From NCBI RefSeq assembly GCF_000472285.1, contig NZ_KI421412.1, positions 494,430 through 527,977 on the forward strand: 33,548 bases of DNA, given 5' to 3'. This document shows positions 5,628 to 14,532 of this stretch, piece after piece (positions within the stretch are counted from its first letter, which is position 1; the number at the start of each line of letters is the position of its first letter). This DNA is from Desulfuromonas sp. TF. Its GTDB lineage: Bacteria > Desulfobacterota > Desulfuromonadia > Desulfuromonadales > ATBO01. Made by a program: the position numbers and the translations under genes. The notes beneath the pieces were generated by a model. The model did no database searches and was not told the DNA's origin. It was given only the letters and a program-made list of their open reading frames with translations.

Positions 5628-6977
5628 ATGACTGGAAAGTTATTTGTCCTATTTACAGGAGTTCTGCTCCTTTCGCTGCTGGCGGGATGCTCTCCGGAGC
5701 AGGCGCGGAAGGAGCGCTTTATCTCTGCACTGTACAATCTGGATTATGCCGATCCGCGCTCCGCGGGTATAAATCCGAAAAAATTGAAGGAAATAGATGC
5801 CATCGTCAAAGAGGCTATCCGTGAAAGGGCCACGCCGGGCGCCGTGGTGGTGGTGCTCAAGGACGGGAAGATCATCTTTGATCGAGCCTACGGGCATCAT
5901 ACGTACGACAAAGAAGTGCCGACGCGGCCGTTCGACATCTATGATGTGGCATCGGTCACCAAGATTTTCGCCACCACGATCGCGGCCATGCGCCTGGTGG
6001 ACCAGGGGAAACTGGACCTGGATGCCACAGTGGGCACCTACCTGAGCGAATTGAACCATTCGCATCCCGACAAAGCCGCCATAATAGTGCGCGATCTGCT
6101 GACGCACCGGGCCGGCTTCATTCCATTCATCCCCTTTTTCCGCGGTATCGGTGAGGGCGATTACAGCACCGAATCCTCTGCCCGTTACCCTGTCAAAGTG
6201 GCGGAGCGCTTTTATCTGGGCAGCGATTATTACAGTGAAGTGATGTGGAAGCAGATCATCGACTCGCCGCTGCGGACACCGGGAAAATCGATCTACAGCG
6301 ATATCGGCATGTTCGTGATGAAGGAGGTTCTGGAGCGCATCGTGCAGCAATCTCTGGATGCGTATGTCGACGAGCAGTTCTACCGGCCTTTAGGCGCCTG
6401 TTCCGTGGGTTTCTGTCCGCTCGACCGCTTTGCCGAAGCACGGATCGTCCCCACCGAGATCGACACTTACTTTCGCGGGCAGCTGCTGAAAGGGTACGTG
6501 CAGGATCCGGGAGCGGCCATGGCGGGCGGCGTATCGGGCCATGCCGGGCTGTTCGCCGCCGCCTATGACCTCGCCATCCTATCCCAGATGCTTCTGAATG
6601 GCGGCATCTATAACGGCCGGCACTATATCAGGCCCGAAACGGTGAGACAGTTTTCGTCCCGCCACTCCGATGACAGCCGACGCGGTCTGGGTTTCGATTG
6701 CTGGGACCCCGAATCGAAGGAGGGTTATCCCTGCAGACTGGCCTCGCCTGAGACCTTCGGCCATACCGGCTATACCGGTACGTGCGTGTGGATCGATCCT
6801 GAACATCGACTGATCTATATCTTTCTATCGAACCGGCTCTACCCCTCGCAGACGGTAAACAAGCTCGCGAAGTTGAATATTCGTTCGCGCATTCAGGACG
6901 TAGTCTACGAGGCGATCGGGACATCCTCCGCAGAATCCAGGAACTTTTCCCCGCCCATCTCCTCTGTTTCTCAATAG
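5628..6977 (+). CDS. Beta-lactamase-fold serine hydrolase lipoprotein
   Basis: A 449-residue member of the class C beta-lactamase / penicillin-binding-protein-like esterase superfamily. A lipoprotein signal peptide is clear: hydrophobic residues 5-18 and the lipobox LLAG|C with Cys21. Active-site motifs are Ser109-Val-Thr-Lys112 (SxxK), Tyr223-Ser-Asp (YxN-like, with Asp in place of Asn) and His379-Thr-Gly (KTG-like). The frame is open far upstream over the divergent pseudouridine synthase gene, but only the ATG at 5628 precedes the signal peptide. It probably acts in the periplasm on cell-wall peptides or esters. Resistance to beta-lactams is not implied. It is transcribed alone, divergent from the RluA gene. 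Confidence 0.88.
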   Translation: MTGKLFVLFTGVLLLSLLAGCSPEQARKERFISALYNLDYADPRSAGINPKKLKEIDAIVKEAIRERATPGAVVVVLKDGKIIFDRAYGHHTYDKEVPTRPFDIYDVASVTKIFATTIAAMRLVDQGKLDLDATVGTYLSELNHSHPDKAAIIVRDLLTHRAGFIPFIPFFRGIGEGDYSTESSARYPVKVAERFYLGSDYYSEVMWKQIIDSPLRTPGKSIYSDIGMFVMKEVLERIVQQSLDAYVDEQFYRPLGACSVGFCPLDRFAEARIVPTEIDTYFRGQLLKGYVQDPGAAMAGGVSGHAGLFAAAYDLAILSQMLLNGGIYNGRHYIRPETVRQFSSRHSDDSRRGLGFDCWDPESKEGYPCRLASPETFGHTGYTGTCVWIDPEHRLIYIFLSNRLYPSQTVNKLAKLNIRSRIQDVVYEAIGTSSAESRNFSPPISSVSQ

Positions 6978-6996
6978 ACACTTCACCAGCCCCCTC

Positions 6997-7231
6997 TCAC
7001 TCCGGCGCGGGAAAACCGAGAGCGGGTCGGATGACCAGCAGGAACGCCTCGGCAATGCGTGCATGCCCTTCGTCGGAAGGATGGAACCCATCCACATCGC
7101 CCTGCATCGCTCGCCCCAAGCGCCAGATAGGCCAGCGGGCCTAGCGGCGGCGGCCTGTCATCCCCCGAAGAACCTCCACAGGCGGTTAGCAGGACCGCCG
7201 ACACCATCCAAGCCAGATATCGCCTCCCCAT
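6997..7231 (-). pseudogene. GDSL/SGNH hydrolase lipoprotein, internally deleted
   Basis: The minus strand starts with a good ribosome-binding site (GGAGAGG) and an ATG at 7231. It encodes a lipoprotein signal (MGRRYLAWMVSAVLLTAC, then GGSSGDD) and the first SGNH-hydrolase block, YLALGASDA. The frame then breaks at about 7110. Directly after, in another frame, comes the last SGNH block, GDVDGFHPSDEGHARIAEAF, with the catalytic Asp-x-x-His-type ending, followed by LLVIRPALGFPAPE and a stop. Everything between the Ser block and the Asp-His block, normally some 130-180 residues, is missing. This is therefore a deletion remnant of a secreted esterase gene and not functional. It lies convergent to the serine-hydrolase gene, 20 bases away. 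Confidence 0.75.
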
Positions 7232-7530
7232 AACCTCTCCCTTGAACGTCCCCCTGCCCTTCCATGGTGCCCCGTAAAAGCCCATTGGCAAGAATGCACG
7301 GACGAAAGGCCGGTGGCCAAAAATTTCTGGAACTGTTTGAAAAACAGGGGGAAAAGCCCCCCCTTAAAGCAGGGACTTCCCCCATGGCTAAATTTCCCCC
7401 GGATCAGCCATAATAAACCTTGCAATTCTCATGAAAACCATGAATCGCCAGAAGGGGCCTTCGCCCCATGAACAAAATATTTATTCTTTTGTCCTGTTCC
7501 CTTTCACCCGACACAAAGAGAGACGATGAA
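7232..7530. other. Intergenic region upstream of the oxidase locus
   Basis: About 300 bases between the GDSL pseudogene and the first oxidase gene. It contains C/G-run hairpins (GGGGG at 7347-7351 pairing with CCCCC at 7357-7361) and a small hairpin GGGGC/GCCCC at 7454-7467. An ATG at 7468 opens the oxidase frame but gives no signal peptide and has no good ribosome-binding site. I see no convincing -35/-10 pair, so the promoter of the oxidase locus is not identified. Confidence 0.5.
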
Positions 7531-9114
7531 ATGAAGGTACTGAAACGACGCCAATTCTTGAAGTATTCGGGCCTGGGCCTGGCCGCCATCTATGTAGGTG
7601 GCTGCGGTGGGGGCGGAGGCGGTGGAGGAAACGGTGGCACCGGAGGGGACGACGACGATCTCCCCGCCGGCGGCGGCAATGACGAAGTTGCCGCGACTCT
7701 CAACTTCACCATTACCGATGCCGTCAAGGAAATGATCACCCACGAGCCCCTCAGTCAGGGCGGAGGCGAGGCCCTGTGCTATTTCTGGGCTTATCAGGTC
7801 AGTGACGCGACCGATCCCGAGAACGTGGTCGACTTCCCCGTTGACTGCCCCGGGCCGCAGATCTTCGCCACGGAAGGGGACCGCATCGCGTTGAGAGTCA
7901 CCAACACCCTGGACGTCCCCCACGCCTTCTTCATCGAGGGGCTGGTCGACAGCGGCCCGATCGAGCCGGGAGAAACGTGGGAAGGGGAGTTCGAAGCCAA
8001 AGATACCGGCGTCTTTCTCTATCACGACAATCTCAATGCGCCCGTGAACCGGGTGATGGGCCTTCACGGCGCCCTGGTGGTCATGCCCAAGGAGGCTTCA
8101 GGAGACAGGTGGACGCCTTACAAAGATCCCACACAGGCGGTTCAGCAGCTCTTCGACGACTTCGGCAGCGCTCCCTGGTGGCCGGGGCTGGCCTGGGAAG
8201 AGGGCGATGTCCGCCCCGCCTCCTTCGTCGAGCCCTTCCGCCAGTACGTCTGGCTCTGCCATCAGGCCAGTCCGGTCCTCTTCGCCGAAGTCGGGCGGCA
8301 CCATGAGAACAACCCCGGCGTCGAGTTCGATGCCGCGACCTTTGTCGAAGCCTTTCTCAACGATCCCTTCATCAACACCAGCAACGACCCGCGCACGGAC
8401 CCCGGCGTCGGTCTGCCCAAAACCGAGAACTTCAACCGGAAACCCCATTTTTTCACCATCAACGGCCAGTCGGGGTTCTTCGCCCACCACAATCCGGCCA
8501 TCACTCCCTTTCACCGCATCGGAGAACCCACCTTGGTGCGCATCCTCAACGCGGGCATGACGGTTCACTCCCTGCATCTGCACGCCAATCACTTCTTCGT
8601 GACGGCCGTCAACAACGAGGCCCAGGAGAACCCCCTCTGGGTCGATGTCTACAACGTCTTTCCGATGGACCACGTCGACTACACGATTCCCTTCATGCGT
8701 CCCCCCGACATCCCCAACCAGAGGGGCATCGGCCGGGCCGACGCGGGACGTTCGACGGCGGGCGGCGGCACGACCTGGCCGCCGCTGGAAGAGTTCGATC
8801 GCTTTTTCCCTCCGCAGGGGACCATGGTCCAGAGCTACGACGATCCCAACGTCCTGGTCGATGTCGGCATGCGGCAGTCGCCGCTGTGCTATCCGATGCA
8901 CGACCACACCGAAGCCTCGCAGACGGCCCAGGGCGGCAACTATAACAGCGGCATGATCGCCGGAATCTACTTTATCGGCGACCGCAATACCCCAGGCCAG
9001 ATGAATTTCCCGTTGGAACCCGAGTTTGAAATGATGCTGATGCTCGGGCGCCGCGTCGGCGTCACCGGCAGCCCCGCAGGCGGGTGGCCCGACGGCTCGA
9101 CAACTGAGTCCTGA
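7531..9114 (+). CDS. Multicopper-oxidase-like protein A (Tat lipoprotein)
   Basis: A 527-residue cupredoxin protein. The start at 7531 gives a twin-arginine signal (KRRQFLK at 5-11), a short hydrophobic stretch and a lipobox ending at Cys25, followed by a Gly8 run and a Gly/Asp linker. The C-terminal cupredoxin domain has multicopper-oxidase ligands: His346-x-x-His349-x-His351 and His457-Asp-His459. Asp458 stands where the type-1 copper Cys normally is. In the N-terminal domain the expected HWHG and HCH motifs are degenerate: PHAFFIEG (131-137) and YHDNLNAPVNRVMGLHG (164-180). Alone it offers only half of a trinuclear copper site. The next gene, 41 bases on, has the complementary half. Likely an extracytoplasmic, membrane-anchored oxidase subunit; the substrate (Fe, Mn, Cu or organic) is unknown. 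Confidence 0.85.
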   Translation: MKVLKRRQFLKYSGLGLAAIYVGGCGGGGGGGGNGGTGGDDDDLPAGGGNDEVAATLNFTITDAVKEMITHEPLSQGGGEALCYFWAYQVSDATDPENVVDFPVDCPGPQIFATEGDRIALRVTNTLDVPHAFFIEGLVDSGPIEPGETWEGEFEAKDTGVFLYHDNLNAPVNRVMGLHGALVVMPKEASGDRWTPYKDPTQAVQQLFDDFGSAPWWPGLAWEEGDVRPASFVEPFRQYVWLCHQASPVLFAEVGRHHENNPGVEFDAATFVEAFLNDPFINTSNDPRTDPGVGLPKTENFNRKPHFFTINGQSGFFAHHNPAITPFHRIGEPTLVRILNAGMTVHSLHLHANHFFVTAVNNEAQENPLWVDVYNVFPMDHVDYTIPFMRPPDIPNQRGIGRADAGRSTAGGGTTWPPLEEFDRFFPPQGTMVQSYDDPNVLVDVGMRQSPLCYPMHDHTEASQTAQGGNYNSGMIAGIYFIGDRNTPGQMNFPLEPEFEMMLMLGRRVGVTGSPAGGWPDGSTTES

Positions 9115-9155
9115 TTCCGATCAATACCATTTGGCGATAAGTAAAGGAGAAAAAA

Positions 9156-10595
9156 ATGTCATTCTCTAATCCCGCTCACCGGATAGTTCGTAAAAGGATC
9201 GCCGGCATGCAGGGCGCCTGGACCAAGATGTGGGATCCTCCCGGGGAAACCCCGGCCCTGCCGGAGCGCCTGGCCCCCACCAATCCGGTCCCCGCCTTCA
9301 TGGAGCAGACCCTCGGGCAGGACGTTTTCCGGGTGGACACACCCAATGTCGTGCAGCGCCGGCTCCTGCACGGGCTGACCCTGCGCACGTGGGATGACGC
9401 CAAGGATCTAGAGTTCATGACCTTCCGGGACTCGGACGACCGGGAGGGGGACGGCCATTTTCCCGGCGCCACCATTCGCGTCCCCCGCGGAGCCATCTTC
9501 CATTGCCTGGCCCAGGCCAGCGGTCCGCCCCCTCACACGATCCACTGGCACGGACAGGAGCCGACGCCGATGAACGACGGCGTCGGCCACTGCTCGATGG
9601 AAATCGACGGGGGAGGCAACGGGTACACCTACCAGCTTCAACCCAACTTCATCGGGACCTATTTCTACCACTGCCACCGCAATACGGTTCAGCATTTCGA
9701 GTTCGGCCTTTACGGCATGTTCCTGGTCGAACCTCCCGACGCCTTCGAAGGACCCAACGCCGGCGGATACCCTCGCCGAACCGCGGCCAATCTGGAAAAT
9801 TTCTCGAAATTCGATGACAAGTATGTCGACGGAGACGCCACCTGGGGGGTGGCCGGACCTCTGGACGGCGCACTTGGAGACCCCGATCCCCATGCCTTCA
9901 CCGTCGAATACGACGTCGAAGCCCTCTGGGTGCTCGACGACCGGGACTCGGTCTGGAGCGACCTGGCCTCCGATGCCAAGGCTTTCTACCCCGGAGGGGC
10001 CTTCACCGAGGATGGACATTTTTCTGACGAGGCCGTTTTGGATACGAACCCCCCGGTTGCGGCGCTCCCGGTCAACCGTCCCGGGGTCGACGACCAGTTC
10101 CCCAAAGGCTTCTTCCACGATTTCAACGCCGACTACTGGTTCGTCAGCGGCGTACCGGTACCGGCCCATAAAGGAGGAACCGCATCCATTCCTTCCGGCA
10201 ACGTCGTTCCTGCCGTCCTGAACAGCGGCGTGGCCGGGATGCAGGTGGACGTGAACGCCGAGGTCGACCAGGTGGTCCTGATCCGGGTCCTGAATGCGGC
10301 CTACAACCGCATCGAGGTCACCTTCCCGGTCGACGTAGTGATCATCGCCTTCGACGGGCGTGCATTGGGGGTTCCTCCCTTCGCACGCTACAACCACGCC
10401 TTCGAGCTCAAGGCCGGAACGCCCTACCACATGAGCACGGCACGCCGTTTCGATGCCTTGATCCGCTCCTCCTCGCCCATCAACAGCTTTGCCGAGGTGA
10501 AATTCTTCTCCGCCAAAGGTCCGAACATTCAGGGAGTCGAGCCGCTCCTGGTGACCGCCCGGATCCCCATCGTCATCAACGAACCCGCTCTTTAG
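9156..10595 (+). CDS. Multicopper-oxidase-like protein B, bears type-1 Cu motif
   Basis: A 479-residue cupredoxin protein. The N-terminal domain holds His127-x-x-His130-Trp-His132-Gly and Tyr171-His172-Cys173-His174 with His180, then GLYGM (184-188). That is a full type-1 copper set (His127, Cys173, His180, perhaps Met188) plus four trinuclear-site histidines. The C-terminal cupredoxin domain has lost its ligands: where protein A has His346, His349, His351 and His354, this protein has Ile386, Thr389, Pro391 and Val394. No signal peptide is visible: the N-terminus MSFSNPAHRIVRKRIAGMQG is basic and not hydrophobic. The start has AAAGGAGA 8 bases upstream, so it is well fixed. Export, if it occurs, may depend on protein A. 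It lies in one operon with proteins A and C. Confidence 0.85.
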   Translation: MSFSNPAHRIVRKRIAGMQGAWTKMWDPPGETPALPERLAPTNPVPAFMEQTLGQDVFRVDTPNVVQRRLLHGLTLRTWDDAKDLEFMTFRDSDDREGDGHFPGATIRVPRGAIFHCLAQASGPPPHTIHWHGQEPTPMNDGVGHCSMEIDGGGNGYTYQLQPNFIGTYFYHCHRNTVQHFEFGLYGMFLVEPPDAFEGPNAGGYPRRTAANLENFSKFDDKYVDGDATWGVAGPLDGALGDPDPHAFTVEYDVEALWVLDDRDSVWSDLASDAKAFYPGGAFTEDGHFSDEAVLDTNPPVAALPVNRPGVDDQFPKGFFHDFNADYWFVSGVPVPAHKGGTASIPSGNVVPAVLNSGVAGMQVDVNAEVDQVVLIRVLNAAYNRIEVTFPVDVVIIAFDGRALGVPPFARYNHAFELKAGTPYHMSTARRFDALIRSSSPINSFAEVKFFSAKGPNIQGVEPLLVTARIPIVINEPAL

Positions 10596-10615: not shown

Positions 10616-10641
10616 GCGGGGGGATGTTCCTATCCCCCCGC
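10616..10641 (+). repeat. Intercistronic perfect hairpin between oxidase B and lipoprotein C
   Basis: GCGGGGGGAT (10616-10625) pairs perfectly with ATCCCCCCGC (10632-10641) around a 6-base loop. It sits 20 bases after the oxidase B stop and 24 bases before the next start. No T-run follows, so it could be an mRNA processing or stabilising element or a partial attenuator that sets subunit ratios. Confidence 0.75.
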
Positions 10642-10665: not shown

Positions 10666-12327
10666 ATGCACCCAGCGCTGAAGTCCTCGATGGCGGTCCT
10701 ATCTCCTGTCGCCCTGTCTCTTGTCCTCCTGGTTGCCTTGACCGCGTGCGGAGGTGGTGGCGGGGACGGCAGCACCGTGCCCGCGCCACGGGCTGACCGC
10801 TTCACCTGGACCGGCAACACCCGCCTCAACGTCACCGCATCCGACGGCTTGCTCGCCAACGACCCGCCCGGCACCACCATCTCCACGGCCTCAAGCGTCA
10901 CCGGCCAAGGAGGGGCCGTCACCGTCAATCTGGCCACCGGAGCCTTCGTCTACGATCCTCCGGTCGGCCTCCAGAACGCGGACGACACTTTCAGCTACAC
11001 CACCAGCGGTGGTGCGGTCACGGCGACAATCACGCTTGAAGAGCGCATCTGGTACGTGCGGAACAATGATGCCGGAGCCAACCAAGGGACTCAGTTGTCT
11101 CCCTTTCTAACCCTGGCACAAGCCGAAGCCGCCGCGGACGAGAACGACATCCTCTTCGTGTTTGCCGGCGATCAGACGGACACCGGTCAGGACACCGGCA
11201 TCACCCTGAAAAACGGTCAGCGACTGCTCGGCGAAGGGGTGGGATTGCGAGTAAACGGCGTGCCCATCGTCGATCCGGTGCCCGAATCTCTTATATCCAA
11301 CGCCGCACTGGCAGCAGTCGGCGACTCGCCTGTCGTCACGCTCGCCTCAAACAACGAGGTTGCTGGCTTCATCCTCCAGCCGGCCTTCAACGAAGGCATT
11401 CTAGCCATGGGGGGCGGCGGATACAGCCTGCACGACAATATCATTCGGAATTTCGATCCCGACAACGGCAGCGAAGGGATACGGCTGCTCCACGTCACCG
11501 GCGAAAACCTGGTGACCCGCAACACGATCAGCGGTTCGCCGGGCACGGCCATCAAGGTGGCCAACAATGAGGACCGGACCGGGGACATGGTGCCTGCAAC
11601 ACCTGTTGTCGCCAGGGTGACCATAAGCCGCAACACTATAACCAGCGCGGTTCGCAACGGGATTGCATGCAATCTCGACGGTGCCGGCACCGAGGTGACG
11701 CTGAACATCCTGACCAATACCATAGCCACCGCCGGCCTCGCCGCTGCGGACAAGGGAATCCGTATCGACAGTCTGGGCGGCGCCGGTGTCACCACCCTCC
11801 TCTCCCGCAATTCCATCTCGGCCAGCAGCGGCGAGGCCATCGGTCTTCTGGCTGCCGCCACCGCCCAGTTGCACGCCTTTGCCGCCAACGGCAATCTGAC
11901 CGGAAGCGGAGCGGTTTTCGACTTTCACGCGTCGACGGCCTCCCCTGGCGCGGCCCTTTGCCTGGAGCTGGTCAACAACGCCAACGCTGCCGGCAACTCA
12001 TCGTTCCAGATCGATAACGTCGCCGGAGGTGATCTTCGCTTTTTCGAGGATCTGAACGACACCCTCGCCGAGCGCGTCGAGCCGGTCGTCCCCATTGCTC
12101 CAGGAGAGTGCGGCATCCCTCTCGACGGCGCGGCGCTCTTCGAGACCAATTGCGGCCACTGTCATCGCGGCAATGGCCTGGGCCGCGGATCGGTAGGGCC
12201 GAACGTTACCAACACGACCGCGGACGAAATCAACTTTCAGATCGCCACCAACTTTTCCATGAGCGATATTAACCTGACCCAACAGGAGATCGCGGCCATC
12301 GCGGCGACTCTGTCTGCGACACCCTGA
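10666..12327 (+). CDS. Beta-helix lipoprotein with C-terminal c-type heme domain
   Basis: A 553-residue secreted redox protein. The ATG at 10666 has AAGGGGAAGGA just upstream; an earlier in-frame start at 10624 lies inside a hairpin. The signal peptide ends with the lipobox LTA|C (Cys28) followed by Gly5. Residues about 40-125 look like a bacterial Ig/cadherin-type domain (SDGLLANDPPGTTIS, GAFVYDPP, DTFSYTTSGG). Residues about 130-480 form a right-handed parallel beta-helix of the pectate-lyase/NosD kind, with repeats such as NNEVAGFILQ, HDNIIRNF and RNTISGS. The last 70 residues are a mono-heme cytochrome c domain: Cys496-Gly-His-Cys499-His500 with Met532 as likely axial ligand. It probably partners the two oxidase proteins as scaffold and electron carrier; this is inferred from gene order. 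Confidence 0.85.
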   Translation: MHPALKSSMAVLSPVALSLVLLVALTACGGGGGDGSTVPAPRADRFTWTGNTRLNVTASDGLLANDPPGTTISTASSVTGQGGAVTVNLATGAFVYDPPVGLQNADDTFSYTTSGGAVTATITLEERIWYVRNNDAGANQGTQLSPFLTLAQAEAAADENDILFVFAGDQTDTGQDTGITLKNGQRLLGEGVGLRVNGVPIVDPVPESLISNAALAAVGDSPVVTLASNNEVAGFILQPAFNEGILAMGGGGYSLHDNIIRNFDPDNGSEGIRLLHVTGENLVTRNTISGSPGTAIKVANNEDRTGDMVPATPVVARVTISRNTITSAVRNGIACNLDGAGTEVTLNILTNTIATAGLAAADKGIRIDSLGGAGVTTLLSRNSISASSGEAIGLLAAATAQLHAFAANGNLTGSGAVFDFHASTASPGAALCLELVNNANAAGNSSFQIDNVAGGDLRFFEDLNDTLAERVEPVVPIAPGECGIPLDGAALFETNCGHCHRGNGLGRGSVGPNVTNTTADEINFQIATNFSMSDINLTQQEIAAIAATLSATP

Positions 12328-12893: not shown

Positions 12894-12939
12894 GAAAATT
12901 ATTTAGCTTTACAGCTTACAGCAATCACGGGAGGTGGAC

Positions 12940-14532
12940 ATGCGAGGATGGTGGAAGGGGATGCTGCCGCTCCTGACGGGTGCGGCCCTGGTGAGCATGG
13001 CAGCGCTTTCGGCAGCCCAGGCGCCGAATGGGGAGAAGGTGGATGCGGCCGGCTGCTTCGGCTGCCACGAAGAGGTGCAGACACTCTGGAAGGGCTCCAG
13101 CCATGTCGATCTCGGCTGCGACACCTGTCATGCCGGGATGCCGGCGCACCTGAAGAACCCGCAGGAGAAACCCCGGACCGATCTGAATCCGGAGGTCTGC
13201 GGCGCGTGCCATCAGAATCAGTACGAGACGTTCTTCCAGGTCAACTGGAATTCTCCGGCGCGCCAGGAAAAAGGGGTTCCGGAAGGGCGCTCGCCGCAGC
13301 AGGACAAGCTGCTGGCCCCGCACGGATTCACCGTCGAACACAACGAGCCGCGCTCCCATCCCTTCATGGTGGCGGACATGCTGGTCGTGGACCGCTTTTC
13401 CGCAGGCCGCTACCAGTTCAAGGAGCGGTGGGGGGTAACCCGACCTGGAAAGGTCTGGGACGTGGTGGAGGACACCGGCCGGACGCTTCCGGCGACGACC
13501 AAGGCCGGGAATCCCGTCTGTCTGCAGTGCAAGACCTCCGACCTGATCCTGAAGTGGAAATTCCTGGGAGACAAGGACCCCGGCGCGAAGTGGGACCGGA
13601 CCTCCGACGTCGATGCCATGGTCAAGGATGTCCAGAACGTGATGGGCTGCATCCATTGTCATGACCCGCACGCCGCACGTTCCCGCATCGTCCGCGACGC
13701 CCTGATCGAGGCGGTCAGCCGCGAAGGCATCAATCCTTACGCCCCCGATCCCCAGAAGAATGCCGTCGAGGTGGTCACTTTCCGCGACTTCCGGCGAATC
13801 GGACTGATCAACGAGGGCGGCGCCGGCCTGGTCTGCGGGCAGTGCCATGTGGAATACAGCTGCAATCCCGGCATCACGCCGGAAGGGGAGAAGATAGGCT
13901 TCGATGACCGCCGCACCAACCATTTTCCCTGGCGCAACGCCCTGGACATTCTGGAGCAGTACGACACGATCGGTTTCCGCGACTTCCGGCACGCGGTGAC
14001 CGGCGCCCGCCTGGTCAAGCTCCAGCATCCGGAATTCGAAACGTTCTGGGGGAGCGTGCACGAGCGGGCCGGAGTGAAATGCATCGACTGCCACATGGTC
14101 CCGGCGAAGAACGGGGCGGGGGAAACCTTCACCTCCCACCTGATGGTCGGACCGCGGGAGCGGATCGAGCAGGTCTGCCTGCGCTGCCACCCTGAATCCA
14201 CTGCGGAGGAAGCCCTCTACCAGGTCGATGCGGTGCAGAACTATACCCGCGGCAAGATGCGCAAGGCCGAGTACCACCTGGAGCTGCTGATCGACACCTT
14301 CGAGGAGGCCGCCCGCCAGGGGGTGCCCGAGGAAGCGCTCGCCGCCGCCCGCAAGCAGCACGAGATCGCCCACGTGCTCTGGGAATGGTGGACGGCTGAG
14401 AACAGCGACGGCTGGCATAATCCGTCCCTGGCGAGGGAGAGCCTGGCCGCCTCGGAAGCGGCCGCCAAGGAGGGGATCAAGACGCTGCAGGACGCCATGA
14501 AGGCGAAGACGGGCGCTCCCGTGGTGCGCTGA
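12940..14532 (+). CDS. Octaheme c-type cytochrome, nitrite reductase (ONR) type
   Basis: A 530-residue secreted cytochrome; the signal peptide ends near AQA (28). Eight heme-binding motifs occur in order: C39FGCH, C60DTCH, C87GACH, C194LQCK198, C237IHCH, C299GQCH, C381IDCH, C413LRCH. A CxxCK at position four with seven CxxCH is the signature of octaheme nitrite reductases such as that of Thioalkalivibrio nitratireducens, related to pentaheme NrfA, which reduce nitrite (and sulfite) to ammonia (sulfide). Likely active-site residues are Lys198 (heme ligand), Arg138, Tyr306 and His363. Cys308, two residues after Tyr306, matches the Tyr-Cys cross-link pair of that enzyme. The ATG at 12940 is preferred over GTG at 12934, since GGGAGGT just upstream serves as ribosome-binding site. 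No quinol-oxidising partner gene is adjacent. Confidence 0.9.
   Translation: MRGWWKGMLPLLTGAALVSMAALSAAQAPNGEKVDAAGCFGCHEEVQTLWKGSSHVDLGCDTCHAGMPAHLKNPQEKPRTDLNPEVCGACHQNQYETFFQVNWNSPARQEKGVPEGRSPQQDKLLAPHGFTVEHNEPRSHPFMVADMLVVDRFSAGRYQFKERWGVTRPGKVWDVVEDTGRTLPATTKAGNPVCLQCKTSDLILKWKFLGDKDPGAKWDRTSDVDAMVKDVQNVMGCIHCHDPHAARSRIVRDALIEAVSREGINPYAPDPQKNAVEVVTFRDFRRIGLINEGGAGLVCGQCHVEYSCNPGITPEGEKIGFDDRRTNHFPWRNALDILEQYDTIGFRDFRHAVTGARLVKLQHPEFETFWGSVHERAGVKCIDCHMVPAKNGAGETFTSHLMVGPRERIEQVCLRCHPESTAEEALYQVDAVQNYTRGKMRKAEYHLELLIDTFEEAARQGVPEEALAAARKQHEIAHVLWEWWTAENSDGWHNPSLARESLAASEAAAKEGIKTLQDAMKAKTGAPVVR

Follow-up and report, generated by a model that had tools for sequence, protein, structure and literature searches.

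Two adjacent two-domain cupredoxin genes

The window analysed here, i.e., the whole stretch of 33,548 nucleotides from Desulfuromonas sp. TF (assembly GCF_000472285.1, contig NZ_KI421412.1, positions 494,430–527,977 of the forward strand), carries two adjacent genes for two-domain cupredoxin proteins, which an earlier interpretation of the letters alone (the sequence-only reading) had taken for one multicopper oxidase split over two proteins. Gene A (7531–9114) encodes 527 amino acids and gene B (9156–10595) encodes 479; these open reading frames (ORFs) match the coordinates given in that reading and are separated by 41 bases. B has a clear ribosome-binding site (AAGGAG, 9144–9149), that of A being weaker. 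A single broken gene was considered and rejected, because A and B are both open and homologous domain by domain, and B has a ribosome-binding site of its own.

Pfam matches above the curated cut-offs are Cu-oxidase_3 (residues 97–188) and Cu-oxidase_2 (301–382) on A, one per domain, and, on domain 1 of B, Cu-oxidase_3 together with Cu-oxidase_2 (99–194); the underlying families are PF07732/PF07731. NCBIfam models of named oxidases match A and B only far under those models' cut-offs. Most ligands are lost from domain 1 of A (7819–8100, residues 97–190), with PHAFFIEG at 7918–7941 and YHDN...N at 8020–8049. Domain 2 of A (8431–9000, about residues 301–490) bears a trinuclear half-site, formed by HSLHLH at 8566–8583 (His346, His349, and His351, the last two being the expected trinuclear ligands) and HDH at 8899–8907 (residues 457–459, Asp458 standing at the place of the type-1 Cys). 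B bears a type-1 site and a trinuclear half-site in domain 1 (9450–9743, residues 99–196; the Cu-oxidase_3 domain), formed by PHTIHWHG at 9531–9554 (His127 of type 1, His130 and His132 of the trinuclear set) and HCH.....H at 9669–9695 (His172, Cys173, His174, and His180). Domain 2 of B (10143–10580, about residues 330–475) is without copper ligands, Ile386, Thr389, and Pro391 being encoded at 10311–10328. All these features are on the plus strand.

Copper ligands and their conservation

Together A and B hold exactly four HxH motifs, two per chain, and one complete type-1 site, that of B, as the sequence-only reading had stated; the residues named there are all as claimed, and His127 and His172 of B are added here. 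Of the features that define a multicopper oxidase, the eight trinuclear histidines in four HxH motifs are found in A and B jointly and in neither chain alone; Cu-oxidase cupredoxin domains are found in each chain (Pfam); and a type-1 site adjoining trinuclear histidines is found in B (His127, Cys173, His180), A having none that is complete. Such a 4 + 4 pattern is to be expected if A-domain 2 and B-domain 1 share one trinuclear cluster and B binds the one type-1 copper.

Conservation was counted by adding rows of relatives to seed alignments, considering at each position only the rows that reach it; rows are ORFs, so one place may yield two (50 A rows and 48 B rows in total). The trinuclear residues His349, His351, His457, and His459 of A are invariant in 48/48 rows, as is His354, which is at no known ligand position. 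In B, His127, His130, His132, His172, Cys173, and His174 are invariant in 45/45 rows, and His180 is present in 45/46, which bears out the earlier placement of the type-1 site on the N-terminal domain of B. Leu185 of B is likely to be at the axial position of this site (185 is Leu in 27 rows and Met in 19). Chance motif matches are rejected by the invariance of the complementary ligands in relatives (48/48 A, 45/45 B).

The reciprocal loss proposed by the sequence-only reading is correct for the named residues and incomplete otherwise: A-domain 1 retains His131 and His165, opposite His127 and His172 of B, and A also retains the type-1 residue His346. His at A346 is seen in 40 of 48 rows, at A165 in only 4 of 46, and the adjacent A166 is Asp in 46 of 46. 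At the lost positions of B, residue 386 is variable, 389 is Thr in 26/43 rows, and 391 is Pro in 35/43 and His in one. Thus, some replacements are conserved themselves (Asp166 of A, Pro391 of B), and others vary (A134, B386). The gap-free alignment of A with B claimed earlier holds within the motifs (a BLASTP match of 43 residues without gaps, E 0.022) and fails between them: from the start of the first domain-1 motif to that of the second there are 34 residues in A against 45 in B.

At A458, the place of the type-1 Cys, Asp is found in 32, Ser in 8, and Cys in 8 of 48 rows. The Cys forms (HCH), at L085, L118, L119, L126, L127, L128, L129, and L130, lack the second type-1 His; perhaps they are a relic of an ancestral protein in which each domain had a type-1 site.

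Gene linkage and co-occurrence

Linkage was assessed at 49 places, comprising A matches above about 100 bits from a pattern scan and profile searches, plus three plasmid loci; not included were an A fragment of 172 residues where a contig ends (G354:C137), a second Indioceanicola plasmid, other plasmid hits, and matches below 100 bits. B is directly downstream of A on the same strand at 46 of these places, some pairs overlapping, a few being broken, and L114 consisting of two fragments. At L012 and L117, two of the three places without B, the contig breaks off; the third, plasmid pTC1, is a true exception, and upstream of A it encodes a small hypothetical protein whose N-terminus has twin arginines. 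A scan of the species-genome collection for peptide patterns of A, which covers close relatives only, yields nine loci, with B directly next in the eight where the contig continues. Beyond the 49 places, A and B matches are adjacent on the second Indioceanicola plasmid, and G752 holds a further pair (L182).

In profile searches of 136 genomes in the order of the window's genome, the 15 that A marks are also the 15 that B marks (Fisher p 3e-20, uncorrected for kinship), and among 22 genomes of another family the two profiles coincide in 10; with the linkage count, this answers the earlier proposal to seek the pair in other genomes, homologs alone not being the rule. In a sample of the phylum (395 genomes), the 13 that exceed 100 bits with A are also the 13 that do so with B. 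In the phylum of G533 (record title Phycisphaerae; 246 genomes), both exceed 100 bits only in G533 and G752; five more genomes match the B profile alone, at 82–97 bits and over the copper domain only, one of them (G599) through the cousin system described below and the other four through frames of 301–343 residues. At the looser limit of E 1e-10, A matches 39 and B 56 of the 395 genomes, and the weaker matches, as far as a sample was inspected, belong either to the cousin system or to other multicopper oxidases.

The window's genome itself holds a second, diverged A-B pair (C1:8594–11892). Named carriers include Desulfobacteraceae, Desulfobulbaceae, and Phycisphaerae bins, a plasmid of Indioceanicola profundi, and an Arthrobacter plasmid. 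In the last (Arthrobacter sp. FW305-BF8, L130 4716–7063), the A frame continues, by eye, into a B-like start, followed by a frame change; this read-through suggests that A and B were once one gene, a fused A-B.

Recognised export signal on A only

A is predicted to be exported by the twin-arginine translocation (Tat) pathway, with a Tat-type signal motif at 7546–7608 on the plus strand (RRQFLKYSGLGLAAIYVGG..., residues 6–26). The Pfam model TAT_signal matches A weakly, under its cut-off (E 0.081). RRxF is present in 41 of 50 A rows; the nine rows without it are six truncated or fragmentary ORFs and three plasmid forms, namely an RR variant (L128), a single-R variant whose record name is Tat domain protein (L129), and one with no recognised signal (L130). 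No RRxF(L/I/V/M) is seen in the first 90 residues of any of the 48 B rows, and the median of the best 15-residue mean hydrophobicity at the N-terminus is 0.68 for B (43 rows) vs. 1.49 for A (41 rows). The Tat pathway takes folded complexes. As B has no recognised signal, it would, if exported, need a carrier, A being the obvious one; hence, to judge from these N-termini, B is probably exported by riding with A.

Domain ancestry

Comparison of domain profiles by hhalign pairs A-domain 1 with B-domain 1 (96–97%) and A-domain 2 with B-domain 2 (93–94%), the cross pairs A-domain 1/B-domain 2 and A-domain 2/B-domain 1 giving 0–2%; thus, both proteins are units of the domain 1–domain 2 type, in agreement with the earlier proposal that a two-domain ancestor was duplicated.

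Domain trees were built with every second row of the larger groups, and included a cousin operon, B'-A'-C', found via weak profile matches in other genomes of the phylum. In the first-domain tree, the copper-free domains (A, A', C') are separated from the copper-bearing ones (B, B', type-C-like) by a branch with support 99/96; this split may come partly from shared ligand residues. In the second-domain tree, the groups are clean, B-domain 2 has a long branch, and the domains of the three cousin chains group together (87/85), apart from A-domain 2 and B-domain 2, so ligand loss in the two systems may be independent.

Predicted structure of a relative's pair

The modelled pair is that of a relative, L076, whose A and B are 58 and 54% identical to the window's. 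The two genes of L076 are in one frame, and the model reads through the stops across the natural 20-codon intergenic stretch. The alignment used contained 42 rows (10 in-frame pairs, 15 A rows, and 17 B rows); rows that were truncated or broken (L084, L092, and L093 for A; L077 for B) and other pairs were left out. AlphaFold2 gives, for 879 residues, a predicted local distance difference test score (pLDDT) of 83.6 and a predicted template modelling score (pTM) of 0.88.

In structural alignment, residues 4–879 of the model match residues 1–698 of human ceruloplasmin in order (Z 17.6, root-mean-square deviation (rmsd) 3.9, 520 residues); clotting factors V/VIII and single two-domain oxidases score close behind. 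The top Foldseek match is the Mnx manganese oxidase complex (E 4e-23). With the domain boundaries that we assume for ceruloplasmin, the model suggests that A-domain 2 is beside B-domain 1, the live half-sites meeting at the junction of domains 2 and 3 of a ceruloplasmin-like order. Half-sites placed confidently apart, which the sequence-only reading had named as evidence against itself, are not seen at the level of domain order.

A cousin operon with three chains

Among 14 places fetched for the cousin operon, two (L105 and L107) are other oxidases. In the remaining 12, B' has HxxHxHG and HCHxEAxEH, i.e., a type-1 site and half of the trinuclear histidines, and A' has HxxHxHGN and HSH, i.e., the other half. 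A third two-domain chain, C', is recognised in 9 of 12 places, and all nine of these lack HxH motifs. These operons are L166–L177, e.g., L175 (685–4944, plus strand), where the two-domain cupredoxin proteins are in the order B'-A'-C'. One more is found in G599, where a frame of 2694 amino acids ends in B'; C' is also recognised, without ligands, in L178 (8532–11183).

The fold prediction for the cousin, made from an alignment that omits five A'-only rows that had displaced C' rows, is not confident in its arrangement (pLDDT 71, pTM 0.54). Its chains singly match two-domain copper proteins, and no ceruloplasmin chain is among the best 50 matches listed for the model. The three chains of the cousin would make up a ring of six domains resembling that of ceruloplasmin, with a single set of ligands; given the model, this is a proposal.

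Neighbouring genes

The gene following B (10666–12327, plus strand) encodes a lipoprotein-like, right-handed beta-helix protein with one C-terminal c-type heme site (CGHCH), which its sequence makes a possible electron-transfer partner of A-B. In L138 the pair is followed by a relative of this protein (55% identical over 520 amino acids), and another is seen in L005 (47 residues, cut by the contig end). Between B and this gene of the window there is a strong GC-rich hairpin (10616–10641, GCGGGGGGATG TTCC TATCCCCCCGC) without a T run; its 65-base stretch folds at −26.3 kcal/mol. Further downstream (12934–14532), the window encodes an octaheme protein of the NrfA superfamily, with seven CxxCH and one CxxCK (CLQCK), presumably resembling octaheme nitrite reductases.

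Of 28 stretches surrounding A genes, 14 encode a di-heme protein matching CCP_MauG; L006 and L146 being one place, this makes 13 places of 27. One such gene is at 6169–8184 (minus strand) of L139, next to the A-B pair, and the others are in 13 further stretches; the MbnH and MauG models match these neighbours below cut-off. Secreted GFPxWYxD proteins, as many as three in one locus, and an HAF-repeat lipoprotein-like protein are often found in such loci. The window has no di-heme MauG/MbnH-like or GFPxWYxD genes beside A-B; the second pair of its genome (L142) is adjoined by relatives of the di-heme, GFPxWYxD, and HAF-repeat proteins. The di-heme and GFPxWYxD neighbours may point to a surface metal-redox system. 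Taken together, the MauG-like and beta-helix proteins make a c-type heme protein a frequent neighbour of the pair, which fits electron exchange with B and, being gene context, proves nothing.

Comparison with known copper oxidases

The two-domain oxidases 2zwn and 3g5w, which we take to be of type C, are the closest solved relatives of B by profile among the matches listed (E 4e-25 and 1e-24) and the second and third for A. Domain 2 of 2zwn has HxxHxH and HDH (seen in part in the alignments), like A-domain 2. In type-C oxidases, the trinuclear site is between neighbouring subunits of a homotrimer, each chain having both half-sites. The A-B pair resembles them in having the type-1 copper on the B-domain 1 side of the junction; the difference is that the half-sites here are on different gene products, and, in the aligned rows, no single chain has both a type-1 site in domain 1 and trinuclear histidines in both domains.

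According to a phylogenetic study of six-domain proteins (PMC3600357), the bacterial six-domain oxidases analysed there have the trinuclear site between domains 2 and 3 and the type-1 site in domain 2. The order of half-sites and the model alignment would put A-domain 2 and B-domain 1 at the same 2/3 interface as in these proteins (MnxG, MofA-like, Geobacter GSU1252); however, the pair consists of two chains of two domains each, not six domains in one chain, and its type-1 Cys is in B-domain 1, at the domain-3 position, rather than in domain 2. MnxG is not among the best 60 solved-structure matches listed for the A or B profile. With ceruloplasmin, the likeness is the in-order alignment of the A-B model with residues 1–698.

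More than one kind of subunit is found, as in A-B, in the Mnx complex (MnxG with MnxE3F3) and in fungal heterodimeric laccases. The latter consist of a whole laccase and a small subunit. MnxG, unlike A-B, is the sole multicopper oxidase encoded in its operon (PMC5622069). Among the open-licence papers listed by literature searches, none, judged by title and the beginning of the abstract, describes a heteromeric, split, paired, or tandem multicopper oxidase or laccase like A-B. On the strength of its residues, we class the pair as a multicopper oxidase variant in which the defining ligands are complete only in both chains together, apart from the type-C and six-domain types.

Interpretation and rival explanations

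We consider it likely, from the ligand pattern and the relative's model, that A and B together form one obligate hetero-oligomeric multicopper oxidase that arose by duplication with reciprocal ligand loss. The obligate heteromer had been proposed by the sequence-only reading and is supported by linkage, co-occurrence, complementary ligands, and the model. The ancestor would have been a two-domain (type-C-like) oxidase with active sites between subunits; after its duplication, A would have lost the copper ligands of domain 1 and B those of domain 2, leaving one trinuclear centre at the A/B interface with four histidines each from A-domain 2 and B-domain 1. A and B would fold and pair in the cytoplasm, A would carry B through the Tat pore, and copper would be loaded outside. 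Electrons would pass from a donor to the type-1 copper of B and, via Cys173 and His172/His174, to the interface cluster, where oxygen would be reduced to water. Given the heme-protein neighbours, a protein or a metal ion (Cu(I), Fe(II), Mn(II)) is plausible as the donor. We are evenly divided on the wider proposal of an oxidase class with one trinuclear centre made from separately encoded half-sites after reciprocal ligand loss, in the forms A + B, where A smuggles the unsigned B via Tat, and B' + A' + C', with six domains and one centre.

Several points weigh against the obligate heteromer or its details. The Paenarthrobacter plasmid pTC1 (L129, 5350–6930) carries A with no B on the plasmid, the chromosome not having been searched, which speaks against strict obligation. 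His131 of A is retained in 41/46 rows, contrary to complete ligand loss in A-domain 1. Co-occurrence is partly explained by joint inheritance of the gene pair, and part of the relatives come from metagenome bins, whose names are possibly wrong. The absence of a signal on B was judged from motif and hydrophobicity, and the hydrophobicity ranges overlap (lowest A 0.76, highest B 1.30). The model is of a relative's pair with the chains joined, hence not of the window's separate A and B; AlphaFold may be copying the domain order of ceruloplasmin; single-chain oxidases are within 2 Z of ceruloplasmin; and the Foldseek superpositions over the whole length are loose (Mnx, TM 0.45, rmsd 13.5; ceruloplasmin 4enz, TM 0.44, rmsd 12.5). 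Finally, a four-domain assembly, as modelled, would leave two of the six ring positions empty.

Since two two-domain chains fill only four of the six places in the ring of trimers and of ceruloplasmin, a 1:1 dimer is not the sole possible stoichiometry. A and B may work together in a three-chain unit (A2B, AB2, or AB with a copper-free third chain) closing a six-domain ring with one live site and dead other interfaces; we see this as possible, on the less probable side, and as compatible with the heteromer set out above. Two-domain laccases of bacteria are mostly active as homotrimers (PMC10707984), the AB model spans only the first four ceruloplasmin domains, and the cousin operon does encode a third chain, C', free of HxH in 9/9; however, no third cupredoxin-like ORF is matched by 12 A, B, and cousin profiles at E 1e-3 beside the pairs, in 29 stretches of 4–33 kb around A genes, so any separate third chain would have to be an unrelated protein or have its gene elsewhere, and the arrangement in the cousin model is not confident. 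It is improbable, in our view, that the heteromer binds copper without being an oxygen reductase, e.g., as a copper store, a carrier, or a nitrite reductase-like protein: the best solved match of the A profile is indeed a NirK-type protein (5zl1), ORFs resembling resistance-nodulation-division (RND) efflux pumps, by eye, flank some pairs, and a MauG/MbnH-like heme gene is common nearby, but all eight trinuclear histidines and the type-1 Cys are invariant. The type-2 copper of NirK needs only three histidines. The full trinuclear set of A + B argues against the NirK type with its mononuclear type-2 site.

That A and B are separate self-oligomers, their complementary losses being coincidental decay of a tandem duplicate, we regard as very improbable. 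Tandem duplicates are inherited together, and pTC1 has an A without B; yet the complementary halves are invariant across carriers named Desulfobacteraceae, Desulfobulbaceae, Phycisphaerae, Alphaproteobacteria, and Actinomycetes, the export signal is one-sided, on A only, and the A and B profiles mark the same genomes. Independent enzymes are rejected given the ligand invariance and the A-B linkage.

Implications

In the usual view, multicopper oxidases descend from two-domain proteins with sites between identical subunits, which were then fused into longer chains. The A-B pair suggests another exit, by duplication and complementary loss, leaving both products needed for one catalytic centre. 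It allows the dependence between paralogues to be tested in a simple enzyme, poses the question of how three coppers are inserted into a cluster between unlike chains, and predicts hitchhiker export of B. It also offers a likely role for proteins called hypothetical, Tat domain protein, or generic multicopper oxidase in plasmid records. The pair recurs in distantly related bacteria and would thus, if the reading is true, be a natural case of one active site made from two separate proteins.

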